DNA from: Persicobacter sp. CCB-QB2
Lineage (GTDB): Bacteria; Bacteroidota; Bacteroidia; Cytophagales; Cyclobacteriaceae
Reading direction: 5' to 3'
NCBI RefSeq assembly: GCF_001274635.1
Contig: NZ_LBGV01000001.1
Span: 620,001-684,000 of the forward strand
DNA length: 64,000 nucleotides
In this document: positions 740 through 23,312 of the stretch, one piece after another
How the letters are laid out: the number at the start of each line of letters is the position of its first letter
Numbering within the stretch: position 1 is the stretch's first letter
Made by a program: the position numbers and the translations under genes
Notes under the pieces: generated by a model
The model's input: only the letters and a program-made list of their open reading frames with translations
Databases searched by the model: none
Told to the model about the DNA's origin: nothing

Positions 740-3726
740 ATGACCAAAAATTATCTGTGGAGGGGATGGCTGATAACCTTAGGGTTGATGCTGGGAGCAT
801 TTACTACTTTTGCCCAGCAAGCCATTACCGGAAAAGTAATCTCTGGGGATGATCAGCAACCCATTCCCGGGGTCAATATTGTCGAGAAAGGTACCGCCAA
901 TGGTACCATCACCGATTTTGATGGAAATTACAGTATGAGCGTCAGCGGACCTGATGCCATTTTGCTATTTTCCTTTGTCGGGTATCAGGATACAGAACAA
1001 CAAGTCGGTAGTCAGACCACCATGAATATTTCTATGGCCACTTCCGTGGAGGAGTTGTCGGAAGTGGTGGTAATTGGTTATGGTTCTGCCAAAAAAGAAG
1101 ATCTTACCGGCTCGGTAAAAGCCATTTCAGCTTCGGACTTTAACCAGGGATCCCTTAACTCCCCTCAGGAGTTGTTGAACGGTAAAGTTCCCGGGGTGCA
1201 AATTACGAACTCCGGAGGTGCGCCCGGAGCCAATTCCACTATACGTATTCGGGGGGATCCTCTCTTTCGGCTTCCAATGATCCTTTGATTGTGATTGACG
1301 GAGTGCCCATTGATAATAATGAGATCGCCGGGATGGCCAATTCCCTGAATACCATTAATCCGAATGATATCGAGACCTTTACGGTATTGAAAGATGCCTC
1401 CGCTACCGCCATCTATGGTTCGCGTGCTTCAAATGGGGTGATCATGATTACCACTAAAAAAGGGACTTCAGGTGGGATTTCACTAGATTATAACGGTACT
1501 TTTTCGGTGAATACGGTTCCCAAAACCATTGAAAGCCTAAATTCCAATCAGTATCGGGAATTGATGAATACTCGATTCGAAACGACCAATCCGGCTGTGT
1601 TGGATTTGTTGGGAGATGCCAATACCGATTGGCAGGATGAAATCCTGAGAACCTCTGTGGCAACGGATCATAATGTTTCAGTTGGAGGAGAAATTGCAGA
1701 ATTCCTTCCTTATCGTGCCTCTGTTGGGTATTCTTTGAATGATGGTATATTGAAAACTTCCCAATTGAAACGTTGGACGGGTAATATCAATCTGAATCCT
1801 AAGTTTTTTGATGATCATCTGGCCGTAAACATCAGTGCCAAAGGGATGAATATTGAAAACCGCTTTGCAGATACCGGTTCTTTGAACGGTGCAATAGGAT
1901 TTGACCCTACGCAGGTGGTAAGGGATCCGGAACGTTTTGCTCCTTATGGCGGTTACTTTGCCTGGGCAGGCTCGACCGGTCTTCCGATTAATATAGCCCC
2001 TGGAAATCCCTTGGCGCTTTTGGAACAAAAGCTAGATAAATCCACTGTTAATCGTTTTATTGGTAATATCCAACTGGATTATAAGTTCCATTTCCTACCG
2101 GAGTTAAGAGCCAATCTGAATCTGGGAACTGACCGTTCGAAAGGAGGAGGGAATGTGATTATTGATCCACAGGCGGCTTTTGATTTAGGAGCTTTCCAAA
2201 ATGGAGGTGCCAACAAGCGCTATGATGAGAAGAAACGAAATGAATTGCTGGATTTTTATTTACAGTATGTTCACAAGTTTGAAGGGCCGGATTTGAATTT
2301 TGATTTGATGGCTGGATATTCCTGGCAGCATTTCTGGAATGAAAAGATTGAAACGGACGTTTTTGGTAACGGAACCATTCGTAATCCGGAACTGATTCAA
2401 CGCTCAGAGAACTTTCTGGTCTCCTTCTTTGGCCGTTTAAATTTGAATTTGAAAAACCGTTATTTACTGACGGCTACGCTGCGGAATGATAATTCCTCGA
2501 GATTTGCGGAGGGGAACCGTGAGGGAGTTTTCCCATCCCTTGCCTTTAGCTGGAATATAGATCAGGAAAGCTTTATGGGCGGAAGTGGAACCTTGTCTAC
2601 TGCGAAAATCAGAGCGGGATACGGTATAACCGGTCAGCAGGATATTGGGGAGGACTATGGTTATTTAGGAATCTACACTCGTGGGCAAGAAACCGCCCAG
2701 GCGATTGGCTATAACCCGGATGGTAGTCCGATCTTCGTGTCTACGCTTCGTCCAGAAGGTTTCGATGCTGACTTAAAATGGGAAACTACTACTACCTGGA
2801 ACGTAGGTATTGACTATGGATTTAAGGATGATCGCTTCACCGGTAGTTTGGATCTATACCTTAGAACTACTGATGATTTGTTGAACACCATTCCGATTCC
2901 TGCAGGTTCGAATTTAAGTAATGAGCTGCTGACCAATGTGGGTAGCCTGGAAAACCGTGGTATTGAGTTCTCTTTTGATGCCAATATTATTCAAAATCAG
3001 GACTGGTTCTGGAGTGCCGGCATTAATTTCACCTATAATGTGAATGAAATTACCAAGCTGACCCAGGTGGATGATCCGTCCTATAAAGGGGTGCCGACTG
3101 GAGGAATAGCCGGAGGTACCGGTAATAATATTCAAATTCACTCTGTAGGATATCCAGCCTTTTCCTTCTTTGTTTGGGAGCAAATATATGATGAAAATGG
3201 AAATCCAATAGAAAATGCCTATGTGGATCGGGACGGGAATGGTATCATTAATGATGATGATAAATATAGATATAAAAACTCCGCACCGGATGTATTGATG
3301 GGAGTAAATACCAAAGTGACTTACAAGAATTGGGATTTCAGTGCTTCTGGTCGGGCCAGCTTTGGCAACTACGTTTATAATAATGTGAATTCTGATGGTG
3401 CCTTTTACAACAAATTGCAGACCAACGGGCAGTTTACCGGTAATGTCACGACCAATATTTATGAAACCAATTTTGTGACTCCTCAATATTTCTCAGACTA
3501 TTATGTGGAAGATGCTTCTTATTTCCGATTAGACAACATTATGATCGGATATAATTTTAATAATATTTTCGGAGGAAAGTGGAGAGCCCGGGTTTACGGA
3601 ACCGTCAACAACGTGTTTGTTATTACAGGGTATGATGGTCTTGATCCTGAGGTTTTTGACGGGATTGATAACGAAGTTTATCCAAGACCGAGAACCTTTA
3701 TGTTGGGAGTGAATTTGGGATTCTAA
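740..3726 (+). CDS. susC: SusC-like TonB-dependent outer membrane receptor (frameshifted)
   Basis: Large SusC/RagA-type TonB-dependent transporter that would import malto-oligosaccharides together with the downstream SusD. Signal peptide at residues 1-25, a carboxypeptidase-regulatory-like domain (about 29-105), the [19 protein letters not shown] segment that opens the plug, then a beta-barrel ending in an aromatic residue (NLGF). The reading frame is broken: the first part stops at 1288 and the second opens at 1285. The break lies at a run of six G (1251-1256). With seven G the sequence reads [20 protein letters not shown], which is the conserved SusC motif, and the whole becomes one frame of 995 residues. 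One base is therefore missing, either in the genome or only in the assembly. First gene of a susC-susD-susE operon (14 bases to susD). Confidence 0.88.
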
Positions 3727-6541: not shown

Positions 6542-6689
6542 TTTCGTTTTAGCCCATTTTGTCACTTTTTTAATTTTTAAGGGAAAAAAGTGTACCCTTT
6601 GTTTTTGTTGGGTAAGAAAAAATGGGAGGCAAGTGGGGGAATACGTTGCCTTATGGGGAGTCTTTGAGTTGTAAGAAAAACAGAGAGTT

Positions 6690-6699
6690 CAAACGTTTG
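6690..6699 (+). promoter_or_regulatory. LacI/GalR-type operator, palindrome CAAACGTTTG
   Basis: Perfect 10-base palindrome CAAACGTTTG within GTTCAAACGTTTGCGT, which resembles operators of LacI/GalR-family repressors. The centre is 97 bases upstream of the amylase ATG at 6792. Related sites with the same core and the same orientation are at 11998, 14308 and 56011. A weak promoter candidate follows (TTG at 6736-6738, TATTGAAT at 6758), about 63 bases from the operator centre, matching the spacing at the other sites. The regulator is presumably the LacI-family protein at 21077, which is inference. Confidence 0.6.
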
Positions 6700-6791
6700 C
6701 GTTTTAATATTCGCAAAAACGCGCACATAAAAGGGTTGAAAATTAAGGAATATGAGATATTGAATTAGTTATTTTTATAAATGGAATACTT

Positions 6792-9700
6792 ATGAACAAA
6801 ACCTTATACTTTTTAATTGGATTTTTCCTGTTTCTTTCTCAGAGTGTAAGTGCTCAAACTATTACGGCCAGCCCTGAGAAGTTTAAAGCTACGGATGAAG
6901 TAACATTTACTGCTGATGTAACCGGTAATGCTTCTTTGGAGGGCCTGACCGAAGCCTGGGCCTGGGTTTGGGTGCCGGATGGGGCAGGTGCAGCAACGAA
7001 TGTCAATCCTGCTACAGATGCACAGGATGCAGCAAAATGGACCAAGGGAGCAGGGAATATTTGGACGATTACTTTCGTGCCTACTGAATTTATTGGGGCT
7101 TCAGCCGATCAGATTTCTCGAATGGGAATTATCCTGAAAGGAAGAGATTGGAATGACGGGCAAACCTCAGATGTCTTTTTTGATGTAGAGCAAGCAGGCG
7201 TTTTAAGTCTGGATTTTACAGCCAGCGTAAGTGGTCCGGTGGAAATTGGAGAGAGCGTGATCTTGACTGCGATACCTAATGAGGAAGCGGATTTGAAAAT
7301 TAGTAATTCAGCGGGAGAGTTGGCATCCGTAGATGCAGAGGAGATACTTACCTATGAATTTATTCCTGAAGCTTCCGGTGCCTATAAATTTTTCGCTTCA
7401 GCGGAAACTGAGGATCAATCTTCTGAAAAGGAATTGGAGATCTTTGTGAAGCCTGATGTAGTAGATGCCGAATTACCCGCAGGCCTGAAATTGGGGCCGA
7501 ATTACGATGCGAATGATGATACCAAAGTGACCTTTGTTTTAGTGGACCCATTGAAACAAAAGGAATTTGTGTATGTGATCGGGGATTTTAAAGAAACTGA
7601 TTGGGAAGTTCAGGATCAATATTCCATGAAACGTTATGAGACCGATACTGCCAACTATTGGTGGTTAGAGGTGACCGGACTGACCCCTGGAGAGGAATAT
7701 ATTTATCAATACCTGATGGATGGTAGTGTGAAAATCGCAGATCCATACACCGATAAGGTTTCTGATTTTGATGATCAGTATATTGATGAAGCACGCTATC
7801 CCGGCTTAAAGCCTTATCCGGAAGAAAAGACGCAGTTCCGTGCCTCTTATTTTCAGACAGGACAAACGGAATTTAATTGGTCAAACGAAACCATTAATTT
7901 CCAAAAACCGGCATCGGAGTCTTTGGTCGTTTATGAATTGCATATTCGCGACTTTACCGAAGAGCAAACTTATGAAGCCGCTATCGCCCGTTTTGACTAT
8001 TTAGAATCTGTGGGGGTGAATTGTATAGAGTTGATGCCGGTGAATGAGTTCGAAGGCAATAATTCGTGGGGTTATAATCCGAACTTTTATTTTGCAGTGG
8101 ATAAATGGTACGGTCATAAAAATGATCTGAAAACCTTCATTGATGAGGCGCATAAAAGAGGGATGGCTGTAGTGATTGATATGGTATTGAATCACACCTT
8201 TCACTCTTCTCCTTTCAACAGAATGTACAATGAGGGCGATTATGGAGACCCAACCGCCGATAACCCATGGTACAATCCACAAGGAAATTTCCCGGATGCT
8301 GATTTAAATTGGGGCGTAGACTTCAATCACGAAAGCGTGTGGACGCAGGCTTTGGTGGACTCGGTGAATACCTATTGGATGGAAGAATACAAAGTGGATG
8401 GTTTCCGTTTTGACTTTACCAAAGGTTTTACCAACCATGTGAAGGAGGGAGATGATATGTGGGGAAGTCGCTATGATCAGGACCGTGTGGATATTTTGAA
8501 GCGTATGAATGCGGTGATTAAGGCAAAGGATGAGGATGCCTATGTGATTTTGGAACATTTGACTGATTGGGATGAGGAAGCGGAACTTGCCAAAGAAGGT
8601 ATGTTGCTTTGGACGGGCGCCGGGCCTCATCATGAGTTCGCTAATGCTGCAAAAGGTGATGGCGCTAATTTGATTGATCAATATTATGGTCGTCGTGATG
8701 GTAACGGAAGCTTAGGTGATAATATGGCCCTGGTTTCCTATATGGAGAGTCACGATGAGGAACGCATGAAGTTTGAGTCAGATTATCATGGAAAGGCACT
8801 TCATGGATATGATTTGAAGCAGGACAAATATTCGATTGACCGTCAAAAATTATTGGCCGCTTTTTTCCTCCCGGTACCGGGTCCAAAAATGGTATGGCAG
8901 TTCGGGGAATTAGGCTATGATGTTTCCATTAATCAAATTGAAAAAGACGGGGAAATCAGCGGAGATTACCGTACGGCAGAGAAGCCGGTGCTTTGGGAGT
9001 ATAATGATAACGCAGAGCGAGTAAAATTGCGTAAAGTGTATAAGGCCCTATTCGATTTAAGAAATGAATCAGCCTTGTACAAGGCCACGAAAGCCAACAC
9101 GCAGCTAAAACTGGGCGGTGATCAGCAAGTAAAAACCATTCAGTTGATGTCAGAAACCGGCCTGAAAGTTCATGTAGTGGGTAACTTTGGCATGCAGGCA
9201 GCAGAGGTAGGAGCGGCAGATCTTCCTTCGGCAGGTACCTGGTATGAGTATTTCAATGGCGGCAATGAAGTGGTATTCGGTCAGGAAGATAAGAAATTAT
9301 TGGGCCCTGGAAACTTTCAGGTATATGTAAGTGAAGTAATTGAATTTCCCGAGACGGGATTGATTAATAATGATTTGCCATTCTTTTCCGTAAATCCGGC
9401 ATCTTTCAAAAAAGAAGAGACCGCAGAGGTGACGTTTTACCCTGAAGGCGGAAACGCAAACCTAATTGATGCTGAAAATGTGAAAATGATGGTGGCGCCT
9501 GTCATGGAGATTGGTGGAAATGCAGGGGAATTTTTGAGTGTCGATATGACAGAGGATAGTGGACGCTACATTGCTTCCTTCAATCCTATGGAGTTGTTTG
9601 GACTGTCCGAAGATGATGACTTAGTTGCTGTAGAGGTTTATTTTGAAGATGACCAGGGAAATAAGGGATTGTCCAAAGAGGAGGAGAATGGTATTCTGTC

Positions 9701-10322
9701 CGTGGAGGTGGAACGCGTTTCCATTAACCCTAAAGCATGGAGGGCTTATGAAGAGATCACCATTAATTTTGATCTGTCCGGTTTGGCTATTGGTCAGGAG
9801 GAAGATCTTTATCTATGGGCCTGGCATAATGGAGATGAGGAAGAAGACGTGCCTAATGGTGATTGGGGGGCTTCGGGTGAAGCCGCGAAATTAACCAGTT
9901 TAGGGAACGGGCAGTTCGAAATGAAAATGGTGCCCGCAGACTACTATAATTTATCTCAGGCTGCCATCATGGCAGATGGCATCGAGTTTTTAGTGAAGAC
10001 CAAAGACGGTGGCATGCAAACCGAGGATTTTGGCCCATTTAAGGCAACGGTTGTGTCGGATTCGGAAGCTGCATCAGATGGCCTTTTGATCTACCCGGTT
10101 CCAACGAATGGCCCGCTATTTATCAGTAGTGAGCAGTGGTCCGGAGAAGAGCTGCAAGTGCGAGTGTTAGATGCTATGGGGCGACTGTTGAAACAAAACA
10201 CCACCAAGGTGCAAAAAGGCGATCGCCTACAAATAGATCTTTCCGCTTATCAAACTGGATATTTCTTTGTTGAAATATTACAGGGAAGTAAGCGATCTGT
10301 TAGAAAAGTAATTAAACTTTGA
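6792..10322 (+). CDS. Secreted GH13 alpha-amylase/pullulanase-like enzyme with T9SS tail
   Basis: 1176 residues. Signal peptide 1-22 (SVSA then QTI). Two beta-rich N-terminal domains come first, then a CBM48/isoamylase-N-like domain (about 245-345, VYVIGDFKETDW). The GH13 barrel starts about residue 375 with VVYELHIRDFT. Catalytic residues by motif: region I VVIDMVLNH near 460, nucleophile Asp541 in GFRFDF, acid/base Glu588 in VILEHL, and Asp655 in ESHDEE. More beta domains follow. The last 80 residues (YPVPTNGPLF ... RSVRKVIKL) are a type A T9SS sorting domain, so the enzyme should be secreted across the outer membrane. It would cut starch outside for the SusCD system. It has its own promoter region with a LacI-type operator and its own terminator. 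The exact specificity (alpha-1,4 or alpha-1,6) cannot be told. Confidence 0.9.
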   Translation: MNKTLYFLIGFFLFLSQSVSAQTITASPEKFKATDEVTFTADVTGNASLEGLTEAWAWVWVPDGAGAATNVNPATDAQDAAKWTKGAGNIWTITFVPTEFIGASADQISRMGIILKGRDWNDGQTSDVFFDVEQAGVLSLDFTASVSGPVEIGESVILTAIPNEEADLKISNSAGELASVDAEEILTYEFIPEASGAYKFFASAETEDQSSEKELEIFVKPDVVDAELPAGLKLGPNYDANDDTKVTFVLVDPLKQKEFVYVIGDFKETDWEVQDQYSMKRYETDTANYWWLEVTGLTPGEEYIYQYLMDGSVKIADPYTDKVSDFDDQYIDEARYPGLKPYPEEKTQFRASYFQTGQTEFNWSNETINFQKPASESLVVYELHIRDFTEEQTYEAAIARFDYLESVGVNCIELMPVNEFEGNNSWGYNPNFYFAVDKWYGHKNDLKTFIDEAHKRGMAVVIDMVLNHTFHSSPFNRMYNEGDYGDPTADNPWYNPQGNFPDADLNWGVDFNHESVWTQALVDSVNTYWMEEYKVDGFRFDFTKGFTNHVKEGDDMWGSRYDQDRVDILKRMNAVIKAKDEDAYVILEHLTDWDEEAELAKEGMLLWTGAGPHHEFANAAKGDGANLIDQYYGRRDGNGSLGDNMALVSYMESHDEERMKFESDYHGKALHGYDLKQDKYSIDRQKLLAAFFLPVPGPKMVWQFGELGYDVSINQIEKDGEISGDYRTAEKPVLWEYNDNAERVKLRKVYKALFDLRNESALYKATKANTQLKLGGDQQVKTIQLMSETGLKVHVVGNFGMQAAEVGAADLPSAGTWYEYFNGGNEVVFGQEDKKLLGPGNFQVYVSEVIEFPETGLINNDLPFFSVNPASFKKEETAEVTFYPEGGNANLIDAENVKMMVAPVMEIGGNAGEFLSVDMTEDSGRYIASFNPMELFGLSEDDDLVAVEVYFEDDQGNKGLSKEEENGILSVEVERVSINPKAWRAYEEITINFDLSGLAIGQEEDLYLWAWHNGDEEEDVPNGDWGASGEAAKLTSLGNGQFEMKMVPADYYNLSQAAIMADGIEFLVKTKDGGMQTEDFGPFKATVVSDSEAASDGLLIYPVPTNGPLFISSEQWSGEELQVRVLDAMGRLLKQNTTKVQKGDRLQIDLSAYQTGYFFVEILQGSKRSVRKVIKL

Positions 10323-10342
10323 TGAGTTAAAAATAATTTTTG

Positions 10343-10374
10343 AAAAGCCTCAGTTTCCTTACTGAGGCTTTTTT
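10343..10374 (+). terminator. Rho-independent terminator after the secreted amylase
   Basis: Twelve-base perfect stem AAAAGCCTCAGT / ACTGAGGCTTTT with loop TTCCTT, running into T residues. It is 20 bases after the stop codon. Confidence 0.92.
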
Positions 10375-10505
10375 GTTTGTATTTCAATCACTTCCGTAAA
10401 ACCCATTCTTTGAGTAAATTAAATTTTAATTGAAATAATACTTTTGAATTTTCAGACTGTTTCATAAAGTCTGACCTGTATCATACCTATGACCACAAAA
10501 TTCCC

Positions 10506-10513
10506 TAAATTTG
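10506..10513 (+). promoter_or_regulatory. Candidate -7 element of the aldolase promoter
   Basis: TAAATTTG matches the Bacteroidota TAnnTTTG element exactly, 40 bases before the aldolase ATG, giving a leader of about 35 bases. I see no good TTTG at the -33 position, so this is a half-supported promoter. Confidence 0.45.
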
Positions 10514-10552
10514 CAGCCATAAAGACTTATTCAGTTTAATAAATACATTATC

Positions 10553-11620
10553 ATGAAATTTCAACCAGGAGTATTATTCGGTGAAGAGTTGATGAAACTT
10601 TACCGTTATGCAAATGACAATAAGTTTGCGCTTCCAGCAGTAAACACTATCGGTACTGATTCTATCAATGCAGTTTTGGAGACTGCTGCAAAAGTAAACT
10701 CTCCTGTAATCGTTCAATTCTCTAACGGTGGTGCGCAATTCATCGCTGGTAAAGGAGCAGGTAACGCTGATCAAAAAGGTGCTATCGCAGGTTCTATCGC
10801 TGGTGCTAAGCACGTTCACTTGATGGCTGAGCTTTACGGTGTTCCAGTTGTATTGCACACTGACCACTGTGCTAAGAAATTGTTGCCTTGGATCGACGGT
10901 TTGTTGGATGCTGGTGAGCAATTCTTCAAAGAGACTGGTAAGCCATTGTTCTCTTCTCATATGATCGACCTTTCTGAGGAGCCATTGGAAGAAAACATTT
11001 CTATTTCTGCTGAGTACTTGAAGCGCATGGCGCCAATGGGTATGACTTTGGAAATCGAATTGGGTATCACTGGTGGTGAGGAAGACGGTGTTGATAACTC
11101 TGATGTTGATGAGTCACGTCTTTACACTCAGCCTGAAGAAGTAGATTACGCGTACACTGAGTTGTTGAAAATTTCTCCTAACTTCACTATCGCTGCTTCT
11201 TTCGGTAACGTACACGGTGTATACAAGCCAGGTAACGTGAAGTTGACTCCAACTATTTTGCGTGACTCTCAGGCTTATATCCACGAGAAGCACAACACTC
11301 CTGAAACTAACCCTGTACACTTCGTATTCCACGGTGGTTCTGGTTCTGAGAAAGCTAAGATCGAGGAAGCTTTGGGTTACGGTTCTATCAAAATGAATAT
11401 CGATACCGATATGCAGTGGGCTACTTGGGAAGGTGTGATGAACTACTACAAAGCAAACGAAGCTTATTTGCAAGGACAAATCGGTAACCCTAAAGGTGCT
11501 GATGAGCCTAACAAGTCTCACTACGATCCTCGTAAGTGGTTGCGTACTGCTCAGGAGTCTTTCGTAACTCGTTTGGAAGAAGCATTCGCTGATTTGAACT
11601 GCATGAACCGTAACGCATAA
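10553..11620 (+). CDS. fbaA: Fructose-bisphosphate aldolase, class II
   Basis: 355 residues, close to the usual length of FbaA-type (class IIA) aldolases. It catalyses the reversible cleavage of fructose-1,6-bisphosphate to dihydroxyacetone phosphate and glyceraldehyde-3-phosphate in the cytoplasm. Motifs: VVLHTDHCAKKLLPW near residues 99-113 (catalytic Asp and zinc His), EIELGITGGEEDGVDN (about 163-178), FGNVHGVYKPGNV (about 220), HGGSGS (about 262) and MNIDTDMQWATWEG (about 280). Third positions are strongly biased to C in Phe, Asn, His and Asp codons compared with the neighbours, which suggests high expression. It stands alone between two amylase genes and links the starch locus to glycolysis. 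Confidence 0.97.
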   Translation: MKFQPGVLFGEELMKLYRYANDNKFALPAVNTIGTDSINAVLETAAKVNSPVIVQFSNGGAQFIAGKGAGNADQKGAIAGSIAGAKHVHLMAELYGVPVVLHTDHCAKKLLPWIDGLLDAGEQFFKETGKPLFSSHMIDLSEEPLEENISISAEYLKRMAPMGMTLEIELGITGGEEDGVDNSDVDESRLYTQPEEVDYAYTELLKISPNFTIAASFGNVHGVYKPGNVKLTPTILRDSQAYIHEKHNTPETNPVHFVFHGGSGSEKAKIEEALGYGSIKMNIDTDMQWATWEGVMNYYKANEAYLQGQIGNPKGADEPNKSHYDPRKWLRTAQESFVTRLEEAFADLNCMNRNA

Positions 11621-11648
11621 TTCGGTTTATTCCAAAAAAATAAATTTT

Positions 11649-11679
11649 AAGCCCGGGTATTTTGCCCGGGCTTTTTTTG
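11649..11679 (+). terminator. Rho-independent terminator of the aldolase gene
   Basis: Stem AAGCCCGGG / CCCGGGCTT with loop TATTTTG, followed by T7. It starts 28 bases after the stop codon. Confidence 0.93.
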
Positions 11680-11727
11680 TGGCCATTTTTTCTGTAATTG
11701 CTTGATGTAAGTCGAACTATGCGTGCC

Positions 11728-11947
11728 TAACTCGAATTATTCATACTTAAATCCTCATTTCGCTGCTAGGTGGGAAACATGAAGGGATATTTTTTATTTC
11801 AAGTATTTCCCAACTAAGGTGTGTGGTAAGGAGGGAGCAAGCTCCCCCCAATTTGGGTATTAAATAATCAGTAAAACTACTCAAATTAATCTGACAACTT
11901 AGATCTGAACGCGACCCTCTACATCAAGCGGTGAATAATGCGGATAA
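11728..11947 (+). mobile_element. MITE-like repeat, copy 1
   Basis: About 220-bp intergenic repeat. The left end TAACTCGAATTATTCA and right end TGAATAATGCGGATAA are imperfect inverted repeats of each other. The interior has the shared landmarks TTAAATCCTC, GGTGGGAAA ... TTTCCCAAC (hairpin arms), GGAGCAAGC and CCAATTTGGG. A second left-end-like sequence, TAAGTCGAACTATGC, lies just outside at about 11708, hinting at an older nested copy. No open reading frame of note. Confidence 0.75.
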
Positions 11948-11997
11948 AGTCTGAAAGAAACCGGTTATTAAATGCAATTGATTGTGCGAATATTCAT

Positions 11998-12011
11998 AAC
12001 AATCGTTTACA
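11998..12011 (+). promoter_or_regulatory. LacI-type operator upstream of the first lipoprotein amylase
   Basis: AACAATCGTTTACA shares the core CAAnCGTTT with the operators at 6690 and 14308. On the other strand it reads TGTAAACGATTGTT, close to the general LacI-family (cre-like) pattern. Its centre is about 62 bases upstream of the -7-like element TATCTTTA at 12067. Confidence 0.5.
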
Positions 12012-12041
12012 TTAACATTATTCTGGGATGTCGGATTACGA

Positions 12042-12074
12042 TTTGTATGGATCGTTTAATTTTTTGTATCTTTA
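12042..12074 (+). promoter_or_regulatory. Candidate promoter of the first lipoprotein amylase
   Basis: TTTG at 12042-12045, 21 bases, then TATCTTTA at 12067-12074 (one mismatch to TAnnTTTG). The leader to ATG 12272 would be about 190 bases and contains the palindrome at 12190. Confidence 0.4.
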
Positions 12075-12189
12075 TTAAGTATTGGCTATGAAAATCAACA
12101 TTTCCCCAACCTGTTTGTTTTTCAGTAAATTAGCTTAATCCCGGCATCTGTGCTTTCCTGATAATTTCCTGCTTACAATAGTAGGAAAA

Positions 12190-12228
12190 TGACCGCTCGG
12201 TCAAAAATTTCGCCTTCGTGTGAAATTT
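12190..12228 (+). promoter_or_regulatory. Perfect dyad TGACCG-CT-CGGTCA plus adjacent inverted repeat
   Basis: TGACCGCTCGGTCA (12190-12203) is a perfect 6-base dyad with a two-base centre, of the kind bound by TetR-family dimers. Next to it AAATTTC (12205-12211) and GAAATTT (12222-12228) form a second inverted repeat with a 10-base loop that could fold in RNA. Both lie in the untranslated leader of the amylase gene, 45-80 bases before its ATG. The function is unknown. Confidence 0.4.
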
Positions 12229-12271
12229 CAGTTTTGAATTTTATTTAGAAGAATCCATTATATTCTATCCT

Positions 12272-14161
12272 ATGAAAAGAGCGATGATTTGGACTTGCGC
12301 GTTGGCATTAGGCTTTAGCGCTTGTGGTGGAGGTGCTGATAAAGAGCAAACCACGACATCCAATACAGAGAAAACCACCACTATGCAAACCAGTGAAGGA
12401 AAAGCAGTGGTTTATCAGGTATTTACCCGTTTATTCGGAAATACCAATACCACCAACAAACCATGGGGAACCATTGAAGAAAATGGGGTCGGTAAATTCA
12501 ATGATTTTACAGACAAAGCCCTGGAAGAAATTAAGGATCTTGGCGTAACACACGTTTGGTACACCGGAGTTCCACATCATGCCGTAATTACTGATTATAC
12601 AAAATATGGTATTTCTAATGATGATCCGGATGTGGTAAAAGGCCGTGCAGGTTCTCCTTATGCCGTGAAGGATTACTATAATGTAAACCCGGATTTGGCT
12701 GAAGATCCGGCGAAGCGTTTGGAGGAATTTAAGGCTTTAGTGGACCGTACGCACAAACATGGAATGAAAGTGATTATTGATATCGTTCCGAACCATGTTG
12801 CCCGTAAATATGAATCTTTGAATAAAGAGGCAGAAGGTTTCGGCGTTAGTGATGATACTTCTGTGGATTATAAGAAGGATAATAACTTTTATTATATTCC
12901 GGGAAAATCATTCAAAGTACCAGCGCCTTTGGATAACTATAAGCCGCTTGGAGGAGATGAACATGCGCTCTCGGATGGCAAATTTGATGAAAATCCGGCT
13001 AAATGGACCGGTAATGGTTCTCGTGAAGCGCAGCCTCATTTCCACGATTGGTATGAGACTGTGAAAATCAACTATGGTGTTCGCCCGGACGGTACCTATG
13101 ACTTCTCAGCGCTTCCTGAAGGATTCGACAAAAAGCCGGCAGCAGATCATTATGCTTTCTGGCAGGATAAGGAAGTGCCATCTTCCTGGACTAAATTTCG
13201 TGATGTGGCCTTGTACTGGACAAAAATGGGCGTGGATGGTTTCCGTTTTGATATGGCAGAGATGGTGCCGGTAGAGTTCTGGTCTTATATGAACTCTTCC
13301 ATTAAAAATGCGAATCCGGATGCCTTTTTGGTGGCAGAGGTTTATAATCCAGCGCAATACCGTAATTATATCCACTTAGGTAAAATGGATTATCTGTATG
13401 ACAAAGTAGAGCTTTATGATACGTTGAAGCATATCATGCAGGGGCACGGTAGTACGGATAATTTGGCGCCAATTCAGGGCGGTTTGGCAGATATCGAACA
13501 CCACATGTTGCACTTTTTGGAAAATCATGATGAGCAACGTATTGCCGCGCCGGAATTTGCAGGTGATATGATGAAAGGTAAGCCCGCTATGGTGGTTTCC
13601 GCTTTAATTTCCACTTCTCCAACCATGATTTATTTCGGACAGGAAGTAGGGGAGCCAGCGGCAGAAGATGCTGGTTTCGGTACCAATTCAAGAACGACGA
13701 TCTTCGATTACTTTGGTGTTCCTCATCACCAGCGTTGGGTCAATGACGGTAAATTTGATGGTGGGCAGTTGACCGAGGAGGAAAAAGGTCTTCGTGATTT
13801 CTATGTTCGCCTTTTGAATTTCACCAAGAACAGCAGCGCGCTAATGGGTGAGTATGCCGATATCCATGCCTTCAACCGCCAGAATGCCGCTGATTATGGT
13901 GATAAACTGCACAGCTTTGTGCGTTGGGATGATCAGGAAAAACTGATAGTGGTGAATAATTTTGATGCTGCGCAGGGAGCGGAAGTGGAAATTCAGTTGC
14001 CTGCCGAAATTGTTAAAGCCTGGGGCTTAAAAGATGGGGATAAAGTGACCATGATGGATCAGTTGTATCAGCAGATTTCAGCTGATCTGAAAGTGGAGAA
14101 TGGGGTAGGTAAATTCAATGTGAAATTAGCGCCTTTGGGTTCCTTTATTTTCAAATTGTAA
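12272..14161 (+). CDS. GH13 alpha-amylase-family lipoprotein
   Basis: 629 residues. Lipoprotein signal MKRAMIWTCALALGFSAC puts it on a membrane, probably periplasmic or at the surface. The GH13 barrel is complete: KVIIDIVPNH (about 166-175, region I), GFRFDMAEM with nucleophile Asp327, LVAEVYNP with acid/base Glu356, and ENHDEQR with Asp420. A C-terminal beta domain ends PLGSFIFKL. It should hydrolyse alpha-1,4 links of malto-oligosaccharides delivered by SusCD, in the manner of neopullulanase or periplasmic amylase. The long insert between regions I and II (about 180-280) is larger than in typical amylases. Monocistronic, with its own operator, promoter and terminator. Confidence 0.92.
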   Translation: MKRAMIWTCALALGFSACGGGADKEQTTTSNTEKTTTMQTSEGKAVVYQVFTRLFGNTNTTNKPWGTIEENGVGKFNDFTDKALEEIKDLGVTHVWYTGVPHHAVITDYTKYGISNDDPDVVKGRAGSPYAVKDYYNVNPDLAEDPAKRLEEFKALVDRTHKHGMKVIIDIVPNHVARKYESLNKEAEGFGVSDDTSVDYKKDNNFYYIPGKSFKVPAPLDNYKPLGGDEHALSDGKFDENPAKWTGNGSREAQPHFHDWYETVKINYGVRPDGTYDFSALPEGFDKKPAADHYAFWQDKEVPSSWTKFRDVALYWTKMGVDGFRFDMAEMVPVEFWSYMNSSIKNANPDAFLVAEVYNPAQYRNYIHLGKMDYLYDKVELYDTLKHIMQGHGSTDNLAPIQGGLADIEHHMLHFLENHDEQRIAAPEFAGDMMKGKPAMVVSALISTSPTMIYFGQEVGEPAAEDAGFGTNSRTTIFDYFGVPHHQRWVNDGKFDGGQLTEEEKGLRDFYVRLLNFTKNSSALMGEYADIHAFNRQNAADYGDKLHSFVRWDDQEKLIVVNNFDAAQGAEVEIQLPAEIVKAWGLKDGDKVTMMDQLYQQISADLKVENGVGKFNVKLAPLGSFIFKL

Positions 14162-14188
14162 AATTGATTATTAGGAATAAATGAAAAG

Positions 14189-14237
14189 AAAAGCCGTATG
14201 CTTGAGTTTACTCAGGGGTACGGCTTTTTATTTTTAA
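14189..14237 (+). terminator. Rho-independent terminator after the first lipoprotein amylase
   Basis: AAAAGCCGTA pairs with TACGGCTTTT, and the inner part CTTGAG / CTCAGG also pairs around TTTA. The stem ends in a T-rich tract. Confidence 0.85.
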
Positions 14238-14307
14238 TAATGAACCGCAGTTTTCCAGGGATTAAATAATGATGAAAGTCACCTTTTTTAGCAGTCCAAG
14301 AGCAATA

Positions 14308-14319
14308 GCAACCGTTTGC
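14308..14319 (+). promoter_or_regulatory. LacI-type operator upstream of the second lipoprotein amylase
   Basis: GCAACCGTTTGC, a near-palindrome with core CAACCGTTTG. It shares the CAAnCGTTT core with the sites at 6690 and 11998, in the same orientation relative to the gene. The centre is about 60 bases upstream of the -7 element of a good promoter at 14352, i.e. about -73 to the expected start of transcription. An operator upstream of the -33 box would fit activation better than simple repression. Confidence 0.6.
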
Positions 14320-14351: not shown

Positions 14352-14381
14352 TTTGGCTTCCTTAAAATTGAGGTATATTTG
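14352..14381 (+). promoter_or_regulatory. Bacteroidota-type promoter, TTTG-N18-TATATTTG
   Basis: TTTG (14352-14355), 18 bases, then TATATTTG (14374-14381), an exact match to the TAnnTTTG consensus. It is the best promoter in the window and lies 67 bases before the ATG at 14449. Confidence 0.72.
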
Positions 14382-14448: not shown

Positions 14449-16065
14449 ATGTTGAAAAGAATCCGCAATATTTTTTCTGTCGCTTTGATGTCGTTATTGA
14501 CAGTAGCCTGTGGTGGAAATCAAGTATCGGAACAGGCGGCGGCCACGCCTGAAAATTTACCCTCACATTGGCCAAAAGGTATAACCTACGAAATCTTTGT
14601 TCAGTCCTTCGCAGATTCTAATGGCGATGGCATCGGGGATTTTAATGGAATGACTTCTAAGTTGGACTATTTAGCTGACCTCGGTGTTGAGGCCATCTGG
14701 TTAATGCCGATTATGAAGTCACCCTCTTATCATAAGTATGATGTGGTGGATTATAAATCTGTTCACCCGGATTATGGTACAGAAGAGGAGTTTAAAAAAT
14801 TCGTAGAGGAAGCGCACAAGCGAAATATTCGCGTGGTGATTGACTTCATCATTAACCATACCTCTCATGAGCATTGGTGGTTTAAGGAGTCTGCGAAGGG
14901 GGATTTTATCACCGATGAGAATGGCAAAAAGGTGAAAAACCCTTACCGTGACTATTTTGACTGGATGACAGAAAAAGAGGCAAAGGCTTCCATTCACTGG
15001 GCAAAAGAGGCACAGGGGGATTCGGATAATATTATTCAGTGGTATCAAAACCCTTATAATAAAGAAGATAAAGAGCTGTTCTACGGCTACTTTGGCGATC
15101 ATATGCCAGATATCAATTATGATAATGCGGAAGTAAAAGAGGCCGTATTTGAAATTGGTAAATGGTGGTTGGCTGAAATGGGAATTGACGGCTTCCGTTT
15201 GGATGCAGCCAAGCACATTTTTGACCATGAGGAAGAGAAAAACCACGCTTTCTGGGTGGAATTCTACAATGAAATGAAGACGGTGAAGCCAGATGTTTAT
15301 TTGGTCGGTGAGGTATGGGCGGATTCTGATATCGTAGCGCCATACTTGCAGGGGCTTCAGTCGTTGTTTAACTTTGATTCTAGTTATGCCATTACGGACG
15401 CTTGTAAAGATGCGGACGGAACAGGTCTGATTGATAATTACAATGCGATTAGCGCCAAATATCAGGCAGTACAGCCAAATTATGTAGATGCTACTTTCAT
15501 TACCAATCACGATCAGAATCGTGCGATGTCGGTATTAGAAAACGATATGGATAAAGCCAAAATGGCCGCTTCCATTCTGATGACCTTCCCGGGATCTCCT
15601 TACCTGTACTATGGGGAAGAGATCGGAATGCGTGGATTGAAGCCAGATGAGTTGATTCGTGAGCCTTTCCTTTGGGCAAAAGATGCTAAAGAAAATACTA
15701 CTTGGGGAAAAGCAGAATACACTACTTTTGAGACCGTGGCTACCGCAGCGGCTCAGCAGAAAGATCCGAATTCCATTTTGAATCACTATAAGAACCTGAT
15801 GCATGTTCGCCGTGCGGAAGATGCTTTGAATATGGGTGAAATGACCACAATTCAGGTGGAAGGAGCTTCAAAAGCAATTTTGGCTTTCGAACGTGATTAT
15901 CAAGGAGAAAAGGTACTGGTATTCCACAACCTGGGAGACCAGACAGAAAGCCTGAACTTCAAAGCCGGGGATTTCAGCAAAGTGGTATTGGATACGAAGA
16001 ACAATAAGGTTAAAGACGATAGCATTGAATTGGCAGCTTATTCGACTTTGATTTTAAAGAAATAA
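14449..16065 (+). CDS. GH13 alpha-amylase-family lipoprotein (SusG / oligo-glucosidase type)
   Basis: 538 residues with lipobox TVAC (Cys near 21). The barrel begins YEIFVQSFADSNGDGIGDFNGMTSKLDYL (about 45-73), with the GDGIGD calcium/loop motif. Catalytic residues: VVIDFIINH near 126-134, nucleophile Asp252 in GFRLDAAKH, Glu288 in LVGEVW and Asp355 in TNHDQN. The C-terminal domain ends YSTLILKK. It resembles SusG and oligo-1,6-glucosidase relatives and would cut starch or malto-oligosaccharides at the membrane. It is probably transcribed from the promoter at 14352 under a LacI-type operator. It is distinct from the 12272 gene: the two differ in length and in motif detail, so they are not a recent duplication. 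Confidence 0.93.
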   Translation: MLKRIRNIFSVALMSLLTVACGGNQVSEQAAATPENLPSHWPKGITYEIFVQSFADSNGDGIGDFNGMTSKLDYLADLGVEAIWLMPIMKSPSYHKYDVVDYKSVHPDYGTEEEFKKFVEEAHKRNIRVVIDFIINHTSHEHWWFKESAKGDFITDENGKKVKNPYRDYFDWMTEKEAKASIHWAKEAQGDSDNIIQWYQNPYNKEDKELFYGYFGDHMPDINYDNAEVKEAVFEIGKWWLAEMGIDGFRLDAAKHIFDHEEEKNHAFWVEFYNEMKTVKPDVYLVGEVWADSDIVAPYLQGLQSLFNFDSSYAITDACKDADGTGLIDNYNAISAKYQAVQPNYVDATFITNHDQNRAMSVLENDMDKAKMAASILMTFPGSPYLYYGEEIGMRGLKPDELIREPFLWAKDAKENTTWGKAEYTTFETVATAAAQQKDPNSILNHYKNLMHVRRAEDALNMGEMTTIQVEGASKAILAFERDYQGEKVLVFHNLGDQTESLNFKAGDFSKVVLDTKNNKVKDDSIELAAYSTLILKK

Positions 16066-16159: not shown

Positions 16160-17482
16160 ATGAGACAACAACCAAAATTATCGTTTTGGCAAATGTGGAA
16201 CGTCAGCTTCGGCTTCCTGGGCGTTCAGTTTGGTTTTGCGTTGCAGAATGGTAACGTGAGCCGTATTCTTCAGGCATTGGGTGCTGATGTGCATCATCTT
16301 GGTTTTTTCTGGCTGGCCGCTCCGATCGCAGGTATTATCATTCAACCGATTATTGGGGGTGCTTCTGATCGTAGCTGGATTCAGTATTTACCCGGACGCA
16401 GGGGTCGTCGTATTCCATTTATTTTGGCGGGAGCCATTGCTGCTACCGTAGCGATGTTCCTGATGCCGAATTCGGAGTTCTTTACTACTTTGATGCCGGC
16501 GATGTTTTTTGGTGCGACCATGTTGTTGATCATGGATGCTTCCTTTAATATTACCATGCAGCCCTTCCGTGCTTTGGTGGGGGATATGGTGCCTAAAAAC
16601 CAACGAGACAAGGGCTATGCTATCCAGTCATTCCTGATTAATACGGGTGCGGTGGTGGGTTCCTTGTTGCCCTTTATTTTGACGGCCGTTGGTGTGGCGA
16701 ATGAACCTCTTCCAGGTGAAAAAGTGGCTCCCTCTGTGACCTGGTCTTTCTATATCGGAGGATCTGCCCTGATCTTGTCGGTATTGTGGACTTCTCTGAG
16801 AACAAAGGAGTATACGCCGGAGGAATATTTCGAATATCACCCGATTGAGGAGAAACCAAAAGAAGCGAAAAAGGATTCTTTCATTGATCTACTGAAAAAT
16901 ATGCCAAAACCAATGATTCAGCTGGCTTTGGTACAGTTCTTTTCCTGGGTGGCCTTCTATATGATGTGGGTTTATTCTACGCCTGCAGTAGCAGAACATG
17001 TTTGGGGAGCTACGGATCCGCAATCTTTGGAATATAATGAAGCCGGTAACTGGGTTGGCGTATTGTTTGGTGCCTATTCCTTATTCGCTGCTTTATTCTC
17101 TATCGTGATGGCGCAGTTGGTGGAGAAATTTGGAAGAAAAACAGTATATGCATTTGCCTTGGTTTTGGGGGGTATAGGATTGGCTTCCTTTCCATATGTG
17201 ACAGATAAGTATATGTTGATCGTTTCAATGGCTGGGGTAGGGATTGCCTGGGCGGCGATTTTGTCGATGCCATTCGCTATCCTGTCTGAGGTATTACCAG
17301 CCGATAAGATGGGGGTTTATATGGGTATTTTCAATTTCACCATTGCCGGCCCACAAATATTGGCAGGTTTAATGGGGGCAACCATCGCAAATGCCTTGGG
17401 TGCACCGATCTGGATTATCTTTGTAGCAGGTATTTGCTTATTATTAGGAGCGCTTTCAGTGGGATTAGTAAAACAAAAATAG
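16160..17482 (+). CDS. MFS sugar transporter, maltose/sucrose (SLC45/GPH-like) type
   Basis: 440 residues with about twelve hydrophobic segments, so an inner-membrane transporter. GGASDRSWIQYLPGRRGRRIPFILAGA (about 73-99) is the loop typical of SLC45-like disaccharide:proton symporters, and NVSRILQALGA (about 29) and PFRALVGDMVP (about 135) are also conserved there. Between the second amylase and the maltose phosphorylase it would bring maltose from the periplasm into the cytoplasm. It ends at a terminator and is separate from the pgmB gene by about 330 bases. Substrate is inferred from context. Confidence 0.87.
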   Translation: MRQQPKLSFWQMWNVSFGFLGVQFGFALQNGNVSRILQALGADVHHLGFFWLAAPIAGIIIQPIIGGASDRSWIQYLPGRRGRRIPFILAGAIAATVAMFLMPNSEFFTTLMPAMFFGATMLLIMDASFNITMQPFRALVGDMVPKNQRDKGYAIQSFLINTGAVVGSLLPFILTAVGVANEPLPGEKVAPSVTWSFYIGGSALILSVLWTSLRTKEYTPEEYFEYHPIEEKPKEAKKDSFIDLLKNMPKPMIQLALVQFFSWVAFYMMWVYSTPAVAEHVWGATDPQSLEYNEAGNWVGVLFGAYSLFAALFSIVMAQLVEKFGRKTVYAFALVLGGIGLASFPYVTDKYMLIVSMAGVGIAWAAILSMPFAILSEVLPADKMGVYMGIFNFTIAGPQILAGLMGATIANALGAPIWIIFVAGICLLLGALSVGLVKQK

Positions 17483-17572: not shown

Positions 17573-17817
17573 GTACTATTCTCATTGTGTCCAGTGCAAA
17601 CGAGTGCAGGAGAATTTTAGGTGAAATTATCATATTACTATTGTTGTCCCTTATAATGGGATTAAATTTGATTTATAATCAAGGAAGGGATAGTCATTTT
17701 GTGGGATTAATAAAAGCCCTGAAATTATTAGAACTATTTTTACCGAGATCGATTTGTAATATAAGGTTACCATTAAAGCCTTATTGGAAATGAATTTACT
17801 TGTCAACTAATAATATT
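17573..17817 (+). other. Spacer upstream of pgmB
   Basis: About 245 bases of AT-rich sequence between the terminator of the transporter and the start of pgmB. A GTG/TTG-started frame of 68 codons (17587-17793) runs through it, but it has no recognisable features and probably is not a gene. The promoter of pgmB should be here; I could not place it. Confidence 0.5.
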
Positions 17818-18465
17818 ATGGATATCAAAGGATGTATTTTTGATTTGGACGGAGTAGTAGTCGATACCGCCAAATATCATTATCTGGCTTGGAAAAAATT
17901 GGGTGCTGAACTGGGCTTTGATTTTACTGAGCAGGACAACGAACGCCTGAAAGGTGTAAGCCGCATGCGCTCTTTGGACATCCTGTTGGAAATCGGTGGT
18001 TTGACGATTTCTCAAGAAGAGAAGGAAGCAGCTGCTACTAAGAAAAATGAGTGGTATTTGGAGTTTATTCACCAAATGCAACCGGATGAAATCCTGCCTG
18101 GAGTTTTGGATTTCTTCAATCAACTAAAGGAAAATAATATCAAAATTGCCTTGGGTTCTGCATCCAAAAACGCAGTTTTGATCTTAGATATTTTAAAAAT
18201 CAAAGATTACTTCGATGTAATCGTGGATGGTAACTCGGTATCCAAAGCTAAGCCGGATCCTGAAGTGTTTACTCAGGGAGCGGAAAAAATGGGCTTGACT
18301 GCAGCAGAATGTGTGGTATTTGAAGATGCGGAAGCAGGGGTGGAAGCAGCGAAAAATGGTGGCATGCGTTGTGTTGGCATTGGGGAGCAGGATGTGCTTT
18401 CTCTAGCAGACGTAGTCGTGTCCGGTTTTACCGAATTTAATATTGAAAATCTAAAAGCTTTATAA
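17818..18465 (+). CDS. pgmB: Beta-phosphoglucomutase
   Basis: 215-residue HAD-superfamily phosphotransferase that converts beta-glucose-1-phosphate to glucose-6-phosphate. The HAD motif I CIFDLDGVVVDTAKYHYLAW is at about residues 6-25 (nucleophile Asp10, acid/base Asp12). GSASKN (about 114) is motif II, Lys near 145 in SKAKPDPEVF is motif III, and EDAEAGVEAA (about 169) is motif IV. The cap domain with KGVSRMRSL matches PgmB. I chose ATG 17818; a TTG at 17800 is in frame but would add six residues not seen in the family. It stands directly before the maltose phosphorylase, whose product it uses. Confidence 0.93.
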   Translation: MDIKGCIFDLDGVVVDTAKYHYLAWKKLGAELGFDFTEQDNERLKGVSRMRSLDILLEIGGLTISQEEKEAAATKKNEWYLEFIHQMQPDEILPGVLDFFNQLKENNIKIALGSASKNAVLILDILKIKDYFDVIVDGNSVSKAKPDPEVFTQGAEKMGLTAAECVVFEDAEAGVEAAKNGGMRCVGIGEQDVLSLADVVVSGFTEFNIENLKAL

Positions 18466-18488: not shown

Positions 18489-18514
18489 TGTAGGAAAGTA
18501 TAATGTGTGGGATT

Positions 18515-18563
18515 GTTGTCCTCACCCGGTTGGGGGATTGGGTGCAGGACAACCCTTTTTCTT
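18515..18563 (+). terminator. Long hairpin between pgmB and maltose phosphorylase
   Basis: GTTGTCCTCACCC pairs with GGGTG(C)AGGACAAC, a 13-base stem with one bulged C and a 12-base G-rich loop, followed by CCCTTTTTCTTT. It could be a terminator or an attenuator that sets expression of the phosphorylase, whose ATG is 22 bases further on. Confidence 0.6.
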
Positions 18564-18584
18564 TCTTGGAATTACAATAGCGTT

Positions 18585-22397: not shown

Positions 22398-23312
22398 ATG
22401 AGTGAGACCTACTTAGGTATCGACATAGGCGGAACCAATACAAAGTTCGGGATTGTGAGCCGTCAGGGCGAGTTGCTGGAGAAAGTAAAGTATCCTACCG
22501 CTGAATTAAGCGCAGAGCCAGAGGGATATATAGAAGCCTTTCTGGGAAAATTAACTGCTTTTTTAGAAAGGCATCCGGAAATCAAAAAAGTGGGACTAGG
22601 CGTCCCGGGGACCTTGGGTCCACGTCGTCGCAAGACCATGGAATTCCCCAATATTCCGGGATTGAGTAATTATGATTTGATGGATCGCCTCGAGTCTGAT
22701 TTTCCTGCCCATGTTTTCCGCCTGGAGAATGATGCAAATGCGGCGGCCTTAGGCGAGTTTTTCTTTGCCAAAGAAGTTATTCCGGACGATTATATATTTT
22801 TGACTCTGGGTACTGGGGTAGGCGGTGCGGTGATTTATGAAAAAGACATTTTTGGGGGTGAAGGCGGTAACGCCATGGAAGTCGGGCATATTCCGGTAGG
22901 CAATGGAAAGTCTTTAGAGGAAACCATCGGTAAGAAAGGGATAGTGGCCATGTGCCGGAAATACCTGGAGGAAGGAAAGTTGGATTCTAAATTGAAAAAC
23001 AATGAGTCCCTGAATTCTAAAAAAATTCAAAAAGCCTGTCTGGAAGGTGATCCCGTAGCGGTAAAAGTTTTTACAAAAGTAGGAAAATACCTGGGGCAGG
23101 GGATCGTTTCCAATCTCCGCATTCTGGACATAGCTACCGTAATTTTAGGCGGAGGAGTGGCAGAAACCTATGACGTGCTTTATCCCGCCATGATGGAGGA
23201 GTTAGAAAAATGGCTGACGCCTTATTATCTGGAGAAATTGAACATCAAAACCGCCTCTTTAGCTAATGAGGCCGGTATCCTTGGGGCGGCCTCTCTAGTG
23301 ATCGCTTCCTGA
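22398..23312 (+). CDS. ROK-family glucokinase
   Basis: 304 residues of the ROK (repressor, ORF, kinase) fold. YLGIDIGGTNTKFGIV (residues 4-19) is the ATP-phosphate loop, GLGVPGTLGP (about 72) and LENDANAAALGEF (about 113-125, with the catalytic Asp) fit, and LTLGTGVGGAVI (about 136) is the second phosphate motif. It would phosphorylate the free glucose released by maltose phosphorylase. The usual zinc site (C-x-C-G-x-x-G-C-x-E) after EVGH is absent: the sequence reads GHIPVGNGKSLEETIGKKGI, with no cysteines. This subfamily therefore lacks the structural zinc. Separate promoter region; a bidirectional terminator follows. Confidence 0.88.
   Translation: MSETYLGIDIGGTNTKFGIVSRQGELLEKVKYPTAELSAEPEGYIEAFLGKLTAFLERHPEIKKVGLGVPGTLGPRRRKTMEFPNIPGLSNYDLMDRLESDFPAHVFRLENDANAAALGEFFFAKEVIPDDYIFLTLGTGVGGAVIYEKDIFGGEGGNAMEVGHIPVGNGKSLEETIGKKGIVAMCRKYLEEGKLDSKLKNNESLNSKKIQKACLEGDPVAVKVFTKVGKYLGQGIVSNLRILDIATVILGGGVAETYDVLYPAMMEELEKWLTPYYLEKLNIKTASLANEAGILGAASLVIAS

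Follow-up and report, generated by a model that had tools for sequence, protein, structure and literature searches.

A LacI-family protein as the probable activator of starch genes through a conserved palindrome in Persicobacter sp. CCB-QB2

The stretch of DNA analyzed here, hereafter the window, comprises 64,000 nucleotides of Persicobacter sp. CCB-QB2 (G000:C1:620001-684000), taken from a genome of 3.87 Mb that is 91.5% complete; two further genomes of the same genus (G001 and G002) were used for comparison. It holds a starch locus in which susC (frameshifted), susD, susE, amylase 1, a class II aldolase, amylase 2, amylase 3, an MFS transporter, beta-phosphoglucomutase, a GH65 enzyme, lacI and a ROK protein follow one another in this order (Table 1). 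Our subject is the protein encoded by lacI at 21077, together with the palindrome GCAANCGNTTGC, copies of which lie upstream of several genes of the locus. We propose, with a probability of about 0.7, that starch and maltose use is regulated by the 21077 protein, a member of the LacI/GalR family, which would bind this palindrome and, from a class-I-like position, act chiefly to activate. Proteins of this type are known above all as repressors, yet here one probably turns starch use on: the sole LacI detected stands beside the starch cluster, and matching sites recur at a set spacing ahead of several promoters, both in the window and in relatives.

By Pfam, the 21077 protein carries an N-terminal LacI helix-turn-helix (HTH; PF00356, 62.1 bits against a cut-off of 27) and a C-terminal periplasmic-binding-protein-like ligand domain (PF00532 and PF13377, both above cut-off), and a PF00356 scan of its own genome returned this protein as the single match. 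With these LacI-family domains it is not of the SusR type, which combines a membrane-bound periplasmic sensor with the SusR DNA-binding domain. Nor did it reach the cut-offs of the NCBIfam models for the CcpA equivalog (TIGR01481, 196.5 of 442.35 bits), the Cra equivalog (NF008452, 142.1 of 385 bits) or the MalI subfamily (NF007449, 168.4 of 310 bits). Its best match among solved structures is 1rzr, “Glucose-resistance amylase regulator” (E 3e-46), which we take to be CcpA. Matches to the protein at E<=1e-90 are present in 186 of the 295 family genomes, and the LacI of the two same-genus loci is 81% identical to it.

The palindrome came from a search in which all 4096 12-bp palindromes were counted, allowing two mismatches, in the sequence ahead of 29 LacI genes (that of the window among them), up to 900 bp for each. 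GCAATC/GATTGC, present at 15 loci where shuffles gave 0.5, ranked first by z; GCAAAC/GTTTGC came fourth, yet it was present in 20 of the 29 loci and led to GCAANCGNTTGC. This search used six shuffles, one of which reached z 8.2 against the others, and at three mismatches a different palindrome (GCATAC/GTATGC) ranked first; we regard the gaps between lacI and a divergent susC as the firmer test. Among 110 LacI upstream regions (30 loci and 80 more in the order listed, with some entries skipped, several of these near contig ends; some of the regions used are shortened by contig ends) there are 51 such gaps, and all 51 contain GCAANCGNTTGC within one mismatch, whereas 60 rounds of dinucleotide shuffling gave 0.7 on average and never more than 3. 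The result was the same in the gaps independent of the palindrome search (33/33), and some gaps carry two or three operators. No operator within one mismatch was found upstream of lacI in 22 of the 110 regions, among which are the window and the two same-genus loci because their operators precede other genes. The CG-centered GCAA...TTGC is a LacI-family type of site, as for PurR, and a palindromic operator with a central CG would suit a LacI/GalR protein.

The original prediction for this DNA had placed a LacI-type operator at a fixed distance upstream of three amylase promoters, naming the 10-mers CAAACGTTTG, CAATCGTTTA and CAACCGTTTG, which are indeed found at 6690, 12000 and 14309; that they share a direction, as was also claimed, has little meaning, the sites being palindromes. 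As bare 10-mers the window sites are near chance: the window has 22 copies of CAANCGTTTG at one mismatch, compared with 16.1 after shuffling, and 16 of the 100 shuffles reach that count; the genome search that had been proposed, run with CAANCGTTTR, returned 54 matches against 43 for the reversed control, again near chance, and was not used as support.

Conservation and promoter spacing tell the sites apart (distances run from the base right of the operator center to the first base of the box). The 14309 site is kept with its flanks in both same-genus genomes, where, amylase 3 being missing, the next gene is that of the MFS transporter, and the −7-like element predicted at 14374 holds, being TATATTTG and kept at the same 60 bp in both. 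An operator overlooked earlier, at 17596, is also conserved in the two relatives, together with TAGATTTG, a TA(A/G)ATTTG box, at 61. The 6690 site retains an 11-bp block ahead of the orthologous amylase in both genomes; the element that had been suggested at 6758 (TATTGAAT) is a poor box, only AGATATTG at 6755 fits, and no box was found at 60 bp in either relative. Upstream of amylase 2 the predicted element at 12067 does exist, as TATCTTTA at 62; the operator itself is weak and has no counterpart in G001 or G002 in the alignment of the same-genus loci. A still weaker match reported before susC (595-604) has four mismatches as a 12-mer by hand count and is unsupported. The list of promoters was mended to match: 12000 is doubted, susC 595 is dropped and 17596 is added. 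That the window sites are chance palindromes is very improbable; the near-chance frequency of the 10-mer favors this explanation, and against it stand conservation together with promoter spacing, the 51/51 gaps and the spacing in the held-out set described below. For the 12-mers at 14308, 17596 and 6689 conservation itself speaks against chance, which may still account for those at 11999 and 595.

Table 1. Features of the starch locus (positions in the window).
Feature	Position	Strand	Remarks
susC	740..3726	+	Frameshift-split: ORFs 740-1288 and 1285-3726; without good operator upstream
Operator TCAAACGTTTGC (10-mer CAAACGTTTG, 6690-6699)	6689..6700	+	1 mismatch to GCAANCGNTTGC; before amylase 1
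Weak −7-like box AGATATTG	6755..6762	+	60 bp from 6690-site operator center; sole box there
Amylase 1 (GH13, T9SS tail)	6792..10322	+	Pfam: Alpha-amylase domain and Por secretion tail
Doubtful operator ACAATCGTTTAC (10-mer CAATCGTTTA, 12000-12009)	11999..12010	+	2 mismatches to GCAANCGNTTGC; before amylase 2
Amylase 2 (GH13)	12272..14161	+	Pfam
Operator GCAACCGTTTGC (10-mer CAACCGTTTG, 14309-14318)	14308..14319	+	0 mismatches to GCAANCGNTTGC; before amylase 3 and MFS transporter
−7 box TATATTTG	14374..14381	+	Perfect TAnnTTTG, 60 bp from 14309-site center; equal distance in G001/G002
Amylase 3	14449..16065	+	Pfam: Alpha-amylase and SusG_C; missing from both same-genus loci
MFS sugar transporter	16160..17482	+	Pfam; gap to amylase 3 ~95 bp
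Operator GCAAACGAGTGC	17596..17607	+	1 mismatch to GCAANCGNTTGC; before beta-phosphoglucomutase/GH65 genes; conserved in G001/G002
−7 box TAAATTTG	17663..17670	+	Perfect TAnnTTTG, 61 bp from 17596-site center
Beta-phosphoglucomutase	17800..18465	+	NCBIfam TIGR01990 above cut-off
GH65 family enzyme	18507..20891	+	NCBIfam NF010380 above cut-off
LacI-family regulator, 359 aa	21077..22156	+	PF00356 and Peripla_BP_1/3
ROK-family protein, probable sugar kinase	22398..23312	+	Pfam PF00480

The susC gene is a single ORF in the G001 and G002 loci and in its own-genome paralogue; the frameshift near 1285 in the window could be an assembly error or decay. The MFS transporter is probably co-read with amylase 3. 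A class II fructose-bisphosphate aldolase gene (10553-11620) sits within the starch locus, as it does in several relatives.

If the 21077 protein is the one that binds the palindrome, operator and gene should occur together across genomes. From the matches listed we hand-picked 60 regions around susC homologues (E<=1e-200), 28 of them LacI-negative (25 genomes) and 32 LacI-positive (31 genomes), with LacI called present at E<=1e-90; G178 was dropped because it is truncated, and one locus of the set, L295, adjoins its lacI. An operator within ~450 bp upstream of the susC homologue was found at 24/32 LacI-positive and 3/28 LacI-negative loci (p 4.5e-7). The negative label denotes a cut-off, not absence of the family: each of the 25 LacI-negative genomes encodes further LacI-family proteins, which in some cases are near-orthologues or orthologue-like fragments, and this counts against our proposal. 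So do G168, with a near-orthologue beside susC, and G183 and G214, with fragments 55-58% identical, where no site precedes that susC, and G236, which has sites and a best LacI homologue only 37% identical. These cases, and the very existence of three operator-bearing loci in LacI-negative genomes, speak for the use of the palindromes by another DNA-binding protein. Two of the three exceptions (G033 and G138), however, have a borderline LacI orthologue beside that susC, so they help the LacI explanation, and with the co-occurrence itself, the single PF00356 match in the genome and the LacI-family look of the site they make a different protein quite unlikely. The choice of the 21077 LacI as regulator therefore draws support from motif discovery, from co-occurrence and from the lack of a second LacI HTH in the genome scan; taken as a whole, the original observation was partly confirmed, and its hedged interpretation is supported as to the type of operator, the regulator and the position upstream of −33.

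The position of the operators relative to promoters is what bears on activation. The −7 box spans −12 to −5 in Flavobacterium psychrophilum (PMC9723704), and a consensus of TAnnTTTG for −7 and TTTG for −33 is quoted in PMC7366714. Strict TAnnTTTG as the sole −7 box gave too few matches in the relatives, and TAnn[AT]TTG was adopted after viewing the aligned operators; because the box had been chosen after seeing this first set, a held-out set was run with box and windows fixed beforehand. In the first set, on the side away from lacI (that is, toward susC where one exists), boxes peak at 60-64 and 73-75 bp, these 8 of the 142 positions taking 21 of the 39 cluster counts (p 1.3e-16 against uniform expectation); toward lacI this set shows no such peak. 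When 4- and 5-mers were scanned by offset with no preset box, ATTG at 78 and TATTG at 77 came out on top, and CTTG was also listed at 50-51, which falls near the expected position of the −33 element. The held-out loci came from a contig search with alignment A1 (12 rows, four other-strand orthologues excluded); 15 of the 80 named loci were removed for overlap with the first set, operators were present in 62 of the remaining 65, and the test gave 21/86 in the windows (p 9e-9). Many of these loci are from Marinilabiliales (Labilibaculum and Prolixibacteraceae were checked); contigs of the window's family overlap in sequence with named Imperialibacter, Fulvivirga, Marivirga and Chryseolinea records, of which the first two are Cytophagales (NCBI taxonomy). 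The held-out set also showed post hoc peaks at 86-88 and 97-99; with these, the distances come to about 62, 74, 87 and 98, in steps nearer 12 than 10.5 bp. There are smaller bumps at 9 and 52 bp, of four clusters each. With the box at −12 to −5, the operator center lies at about −72 to −76, or −85 to −88. A class I type site at set distances upstream of the −7 element is thus present in the minority of operators with a recognizable box. The earlier suggestion that a site upstream of the −33 element fits activation gains from the spacing in the relatives and in the held-out set as regards position; activation would follow from this geometry and from one published, possibly polar transposon mutant.

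Some distances were also seen just 3′ of lacI: at L150, L155-L157, L163 and L165-L166 (11127-11152) and at L147, L161, L168, L174, L178, L181, L186, L194 and L209 (shortly after lacI), an operator is located 86-88 bp from TATATTTG or TACTTTTG, and at others 97-99.

The same protein at the same operators could instead repress, by looping between operators or by blocking another upstream activator, with maltose releasing it. LacI-type factors are said to “typically limit” transcription (PMC6882875), some gaps carry two or three operators, and if the rival boxes at 30-49 bp are the real ones the operator would lie nearer the −33 element. We consider repression unlikely, though the likeliest of the alternatives. 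The conserved boxes at 60 and 61 place the operators upstream of −33, and the lacI mutant of Flavobacterium IR1 resembles a loss of the pathway (PMC9131120). Activation, rather than repression, is the better fit for operators that lie far upstream of −33 and keep to narrow distances on one side only.

The sequence comparisons show the operator, its conservation, its spacing wherever a box can be recognized and its co-occurrence with this LacI, while direct binding, activation, the inducer and the operon structure are inferred. Several further observations tell against activation by the 21077 protein from such sites. The two windows contain a box for only 20/86 operator clusters of the first set (22/88 operator-bearing loci) and for 22/65 held-out loci, and strict TAnnTTTG is rare at operator-bearing loci. 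In the k-mer scan the opposite direction yields AATTG at 98-99, with a score of 12.5 against 17.5, and in some loci the distances of 86-88 and 97-99 are out of 10.5-bp register with 62. Rival boxes exist in the window before beta-phosphoglucomutase (TACTATTG at 34) and amylase 3 (TAAAATTG at 49), and in both relatives susC has GCAAACGATTGA upstream, where a rival box, TATTCTTG, lies at 30 and the positions 60-64 are without a TAnn[AT]TTG box. The locus itself is uneven, with a poor box at 6690, an unconserved site at 12000 and no good site before susC. Only one of the six perfect 12-mers in the genome, that at 14308, has a box; three are inside reading frames, and the intergenic ones at 699069 and 3231354 have no such box at 30-105 bp. 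Relaxed spaced patterns gave 26 and 22 matches in the genome against 12 and 9 in controls and were not used as support. Finally, the IR1 mutant may be polar, as its own authors state (PMC9131120).

Under the activator proposal, LacI would bind GCAANCGNTTGC, whose center precedes the start of the −7 box by 60-64 (or 73-75) bp and so lies far outside the −33 element on its upstream side, and would drive amylase 1, amylase 3 with the MFS transporter, and the beta-phosphoglucomutase-GH65 genes. The lacI gene may belong to the beta-phosphoglucomutase-GH65 transcript, which would amount to positive autoregulation; maltose, or else an alpha-glucoside related to it, is the probable inducer. The same activation would extend to a second susCD locus of the genome, at 2.67-2.68 Mb. 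SusC and SusD of this locus (2.667-2.686 Mb) are 57% and 50% identical to those of the window. One of its susC genes is preceded by GTAAACGATTGC and an abutting GCAATCGGATGC, with TAAAATTG at 62 and 74; ahead of the neighboring susC lies GAAAACGATTGC, with TAAGATTG at 62. At the best homologues in the two same-genus genomes, GTAAACGATTGC is kept in both, and G002 has GAAATCGTTTGC with TAAAATTG at 61. The region G000:C1:2667477-2682330 (L256) contains two susC genes, and ORFs at ~2670478-2671961 resemble transposase pieces by eye.

Elsewhere in the genome, the pattern of CAANCGNNTG, a gap of 50-57 and TANNTTTG has four matches, two of them the 14308 and 17596 sites, against one in the control. 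With one mismatch allowed, the 12-mer is found at 81 places on each strand and its reversed control at 28, a difference that may reflect composition; 20 chosen stretches and 15 loci, part of these 81 places, were inspected. Among other sites in the genome, GCAATCGTTTGA at G000:C1:3589590 lies in the gap that separates a galactokinase gene from a divergent MFS gene (both named by eye), with boxes at 45 and 98 bp, and GCAAATGTTTGC at G000:C1:20473 (L227) lies between a gene that by eye resembles a glucanotransferase with a starch-binding domain and a divergent gene, with no box found.

In the relatives, 35 of 53 unique operators have a second CG-centered element 12 bp to the promoter side, and 3 of 53 have one on the far side; the element is absent from the window operators at 6689, 14308 and 17596. 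This polar composite operator was seen in the LacI-susC gaps of L039, L065, L101, L132 and others. As a tentative extension, which we hold to be possible rather than probable, a LacI-family activator of Cytophagales and Marinilabiliales would do the job that SusR does in Bacteroides from such a composite operator, with the palindrome and a CG element exactly 12 bp nearer the promoter, distances in ~12-bp steps (62, 74, 87, 98) and two or more LacI dimers packed side by side, one face to RNA polymerase. Two dimers at 12 bp would have to be tightly packed, and if true this would be an unusual seating of LacI-family dimers on DNA.

In the parts consulted of the open-licence PMC literature, neither this operator nor a LacI activator of starch genes in Cytophagales was found to be reported, and the available passages of PMC12758843 do not mention LacI. 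A survey of LacI-family regulons includes a single Bacteroides group, for which the portions available name uronate regulators and no maltose regulator (PMC4052901, PMC3878776). A counterpart by locus is lacI23 of Flavobacterium IR1, a gene that, as in the window, lies between susCDE and a maltose transporter-bPGM-GH65 cluster, and whose transposon mutant resembles the susC and transporter mutants, with polar effects admitted by the authors as possible; unlike here, the section on it gives no operator or mechanism (PMC9131120).

Activation by LacI-type proteins has precedents in CcpA and in AraQ/MalR1. CcpA, of the LacI/GalR family, is said to bind 14 bp upstream of −35 when activating (PMC6882875), and Cra, of the same family, activates gluconeogenesis genes (PMC4052901); both differ from the role proposed here in combining repression and activation over many genes, while the 21077 lacI sits in the starch locus. 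Bifidobacterium AraQ and MalR1 are likewise LacI-type proteins whose sites upstream of −10/−35 are read as activation, although they belong to Actinobacteria and to central metabolism, and their sites are said both to have no particular distance and to lie at turns plus one half from the start site (PMC6882875). MalR and MalI are LacI-family regulators of maltose genes (PMC4052901), but the MalR of Firmicutes is a repressor and the MalI cut-off is not reached by the 21077 protein. The picture of how Bacteroidota control starch use is built on SusR of Bacteroides; in B. thetaiotaomicron it turns on the starch sus genes upon maltose or starch (PMC3878776), as we propose for the 21077 protein, but it is located in the membrane, senses on the periplasmic side and binds DNA through a different kind of domain. 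Should a LacI activator take this part in Cytophagales and Marinilabiliales, one could predict from sequence which regulator governs many starch loci, and would gain a natural activator, probably inducible by sugar, whose operator and spacing are defined.

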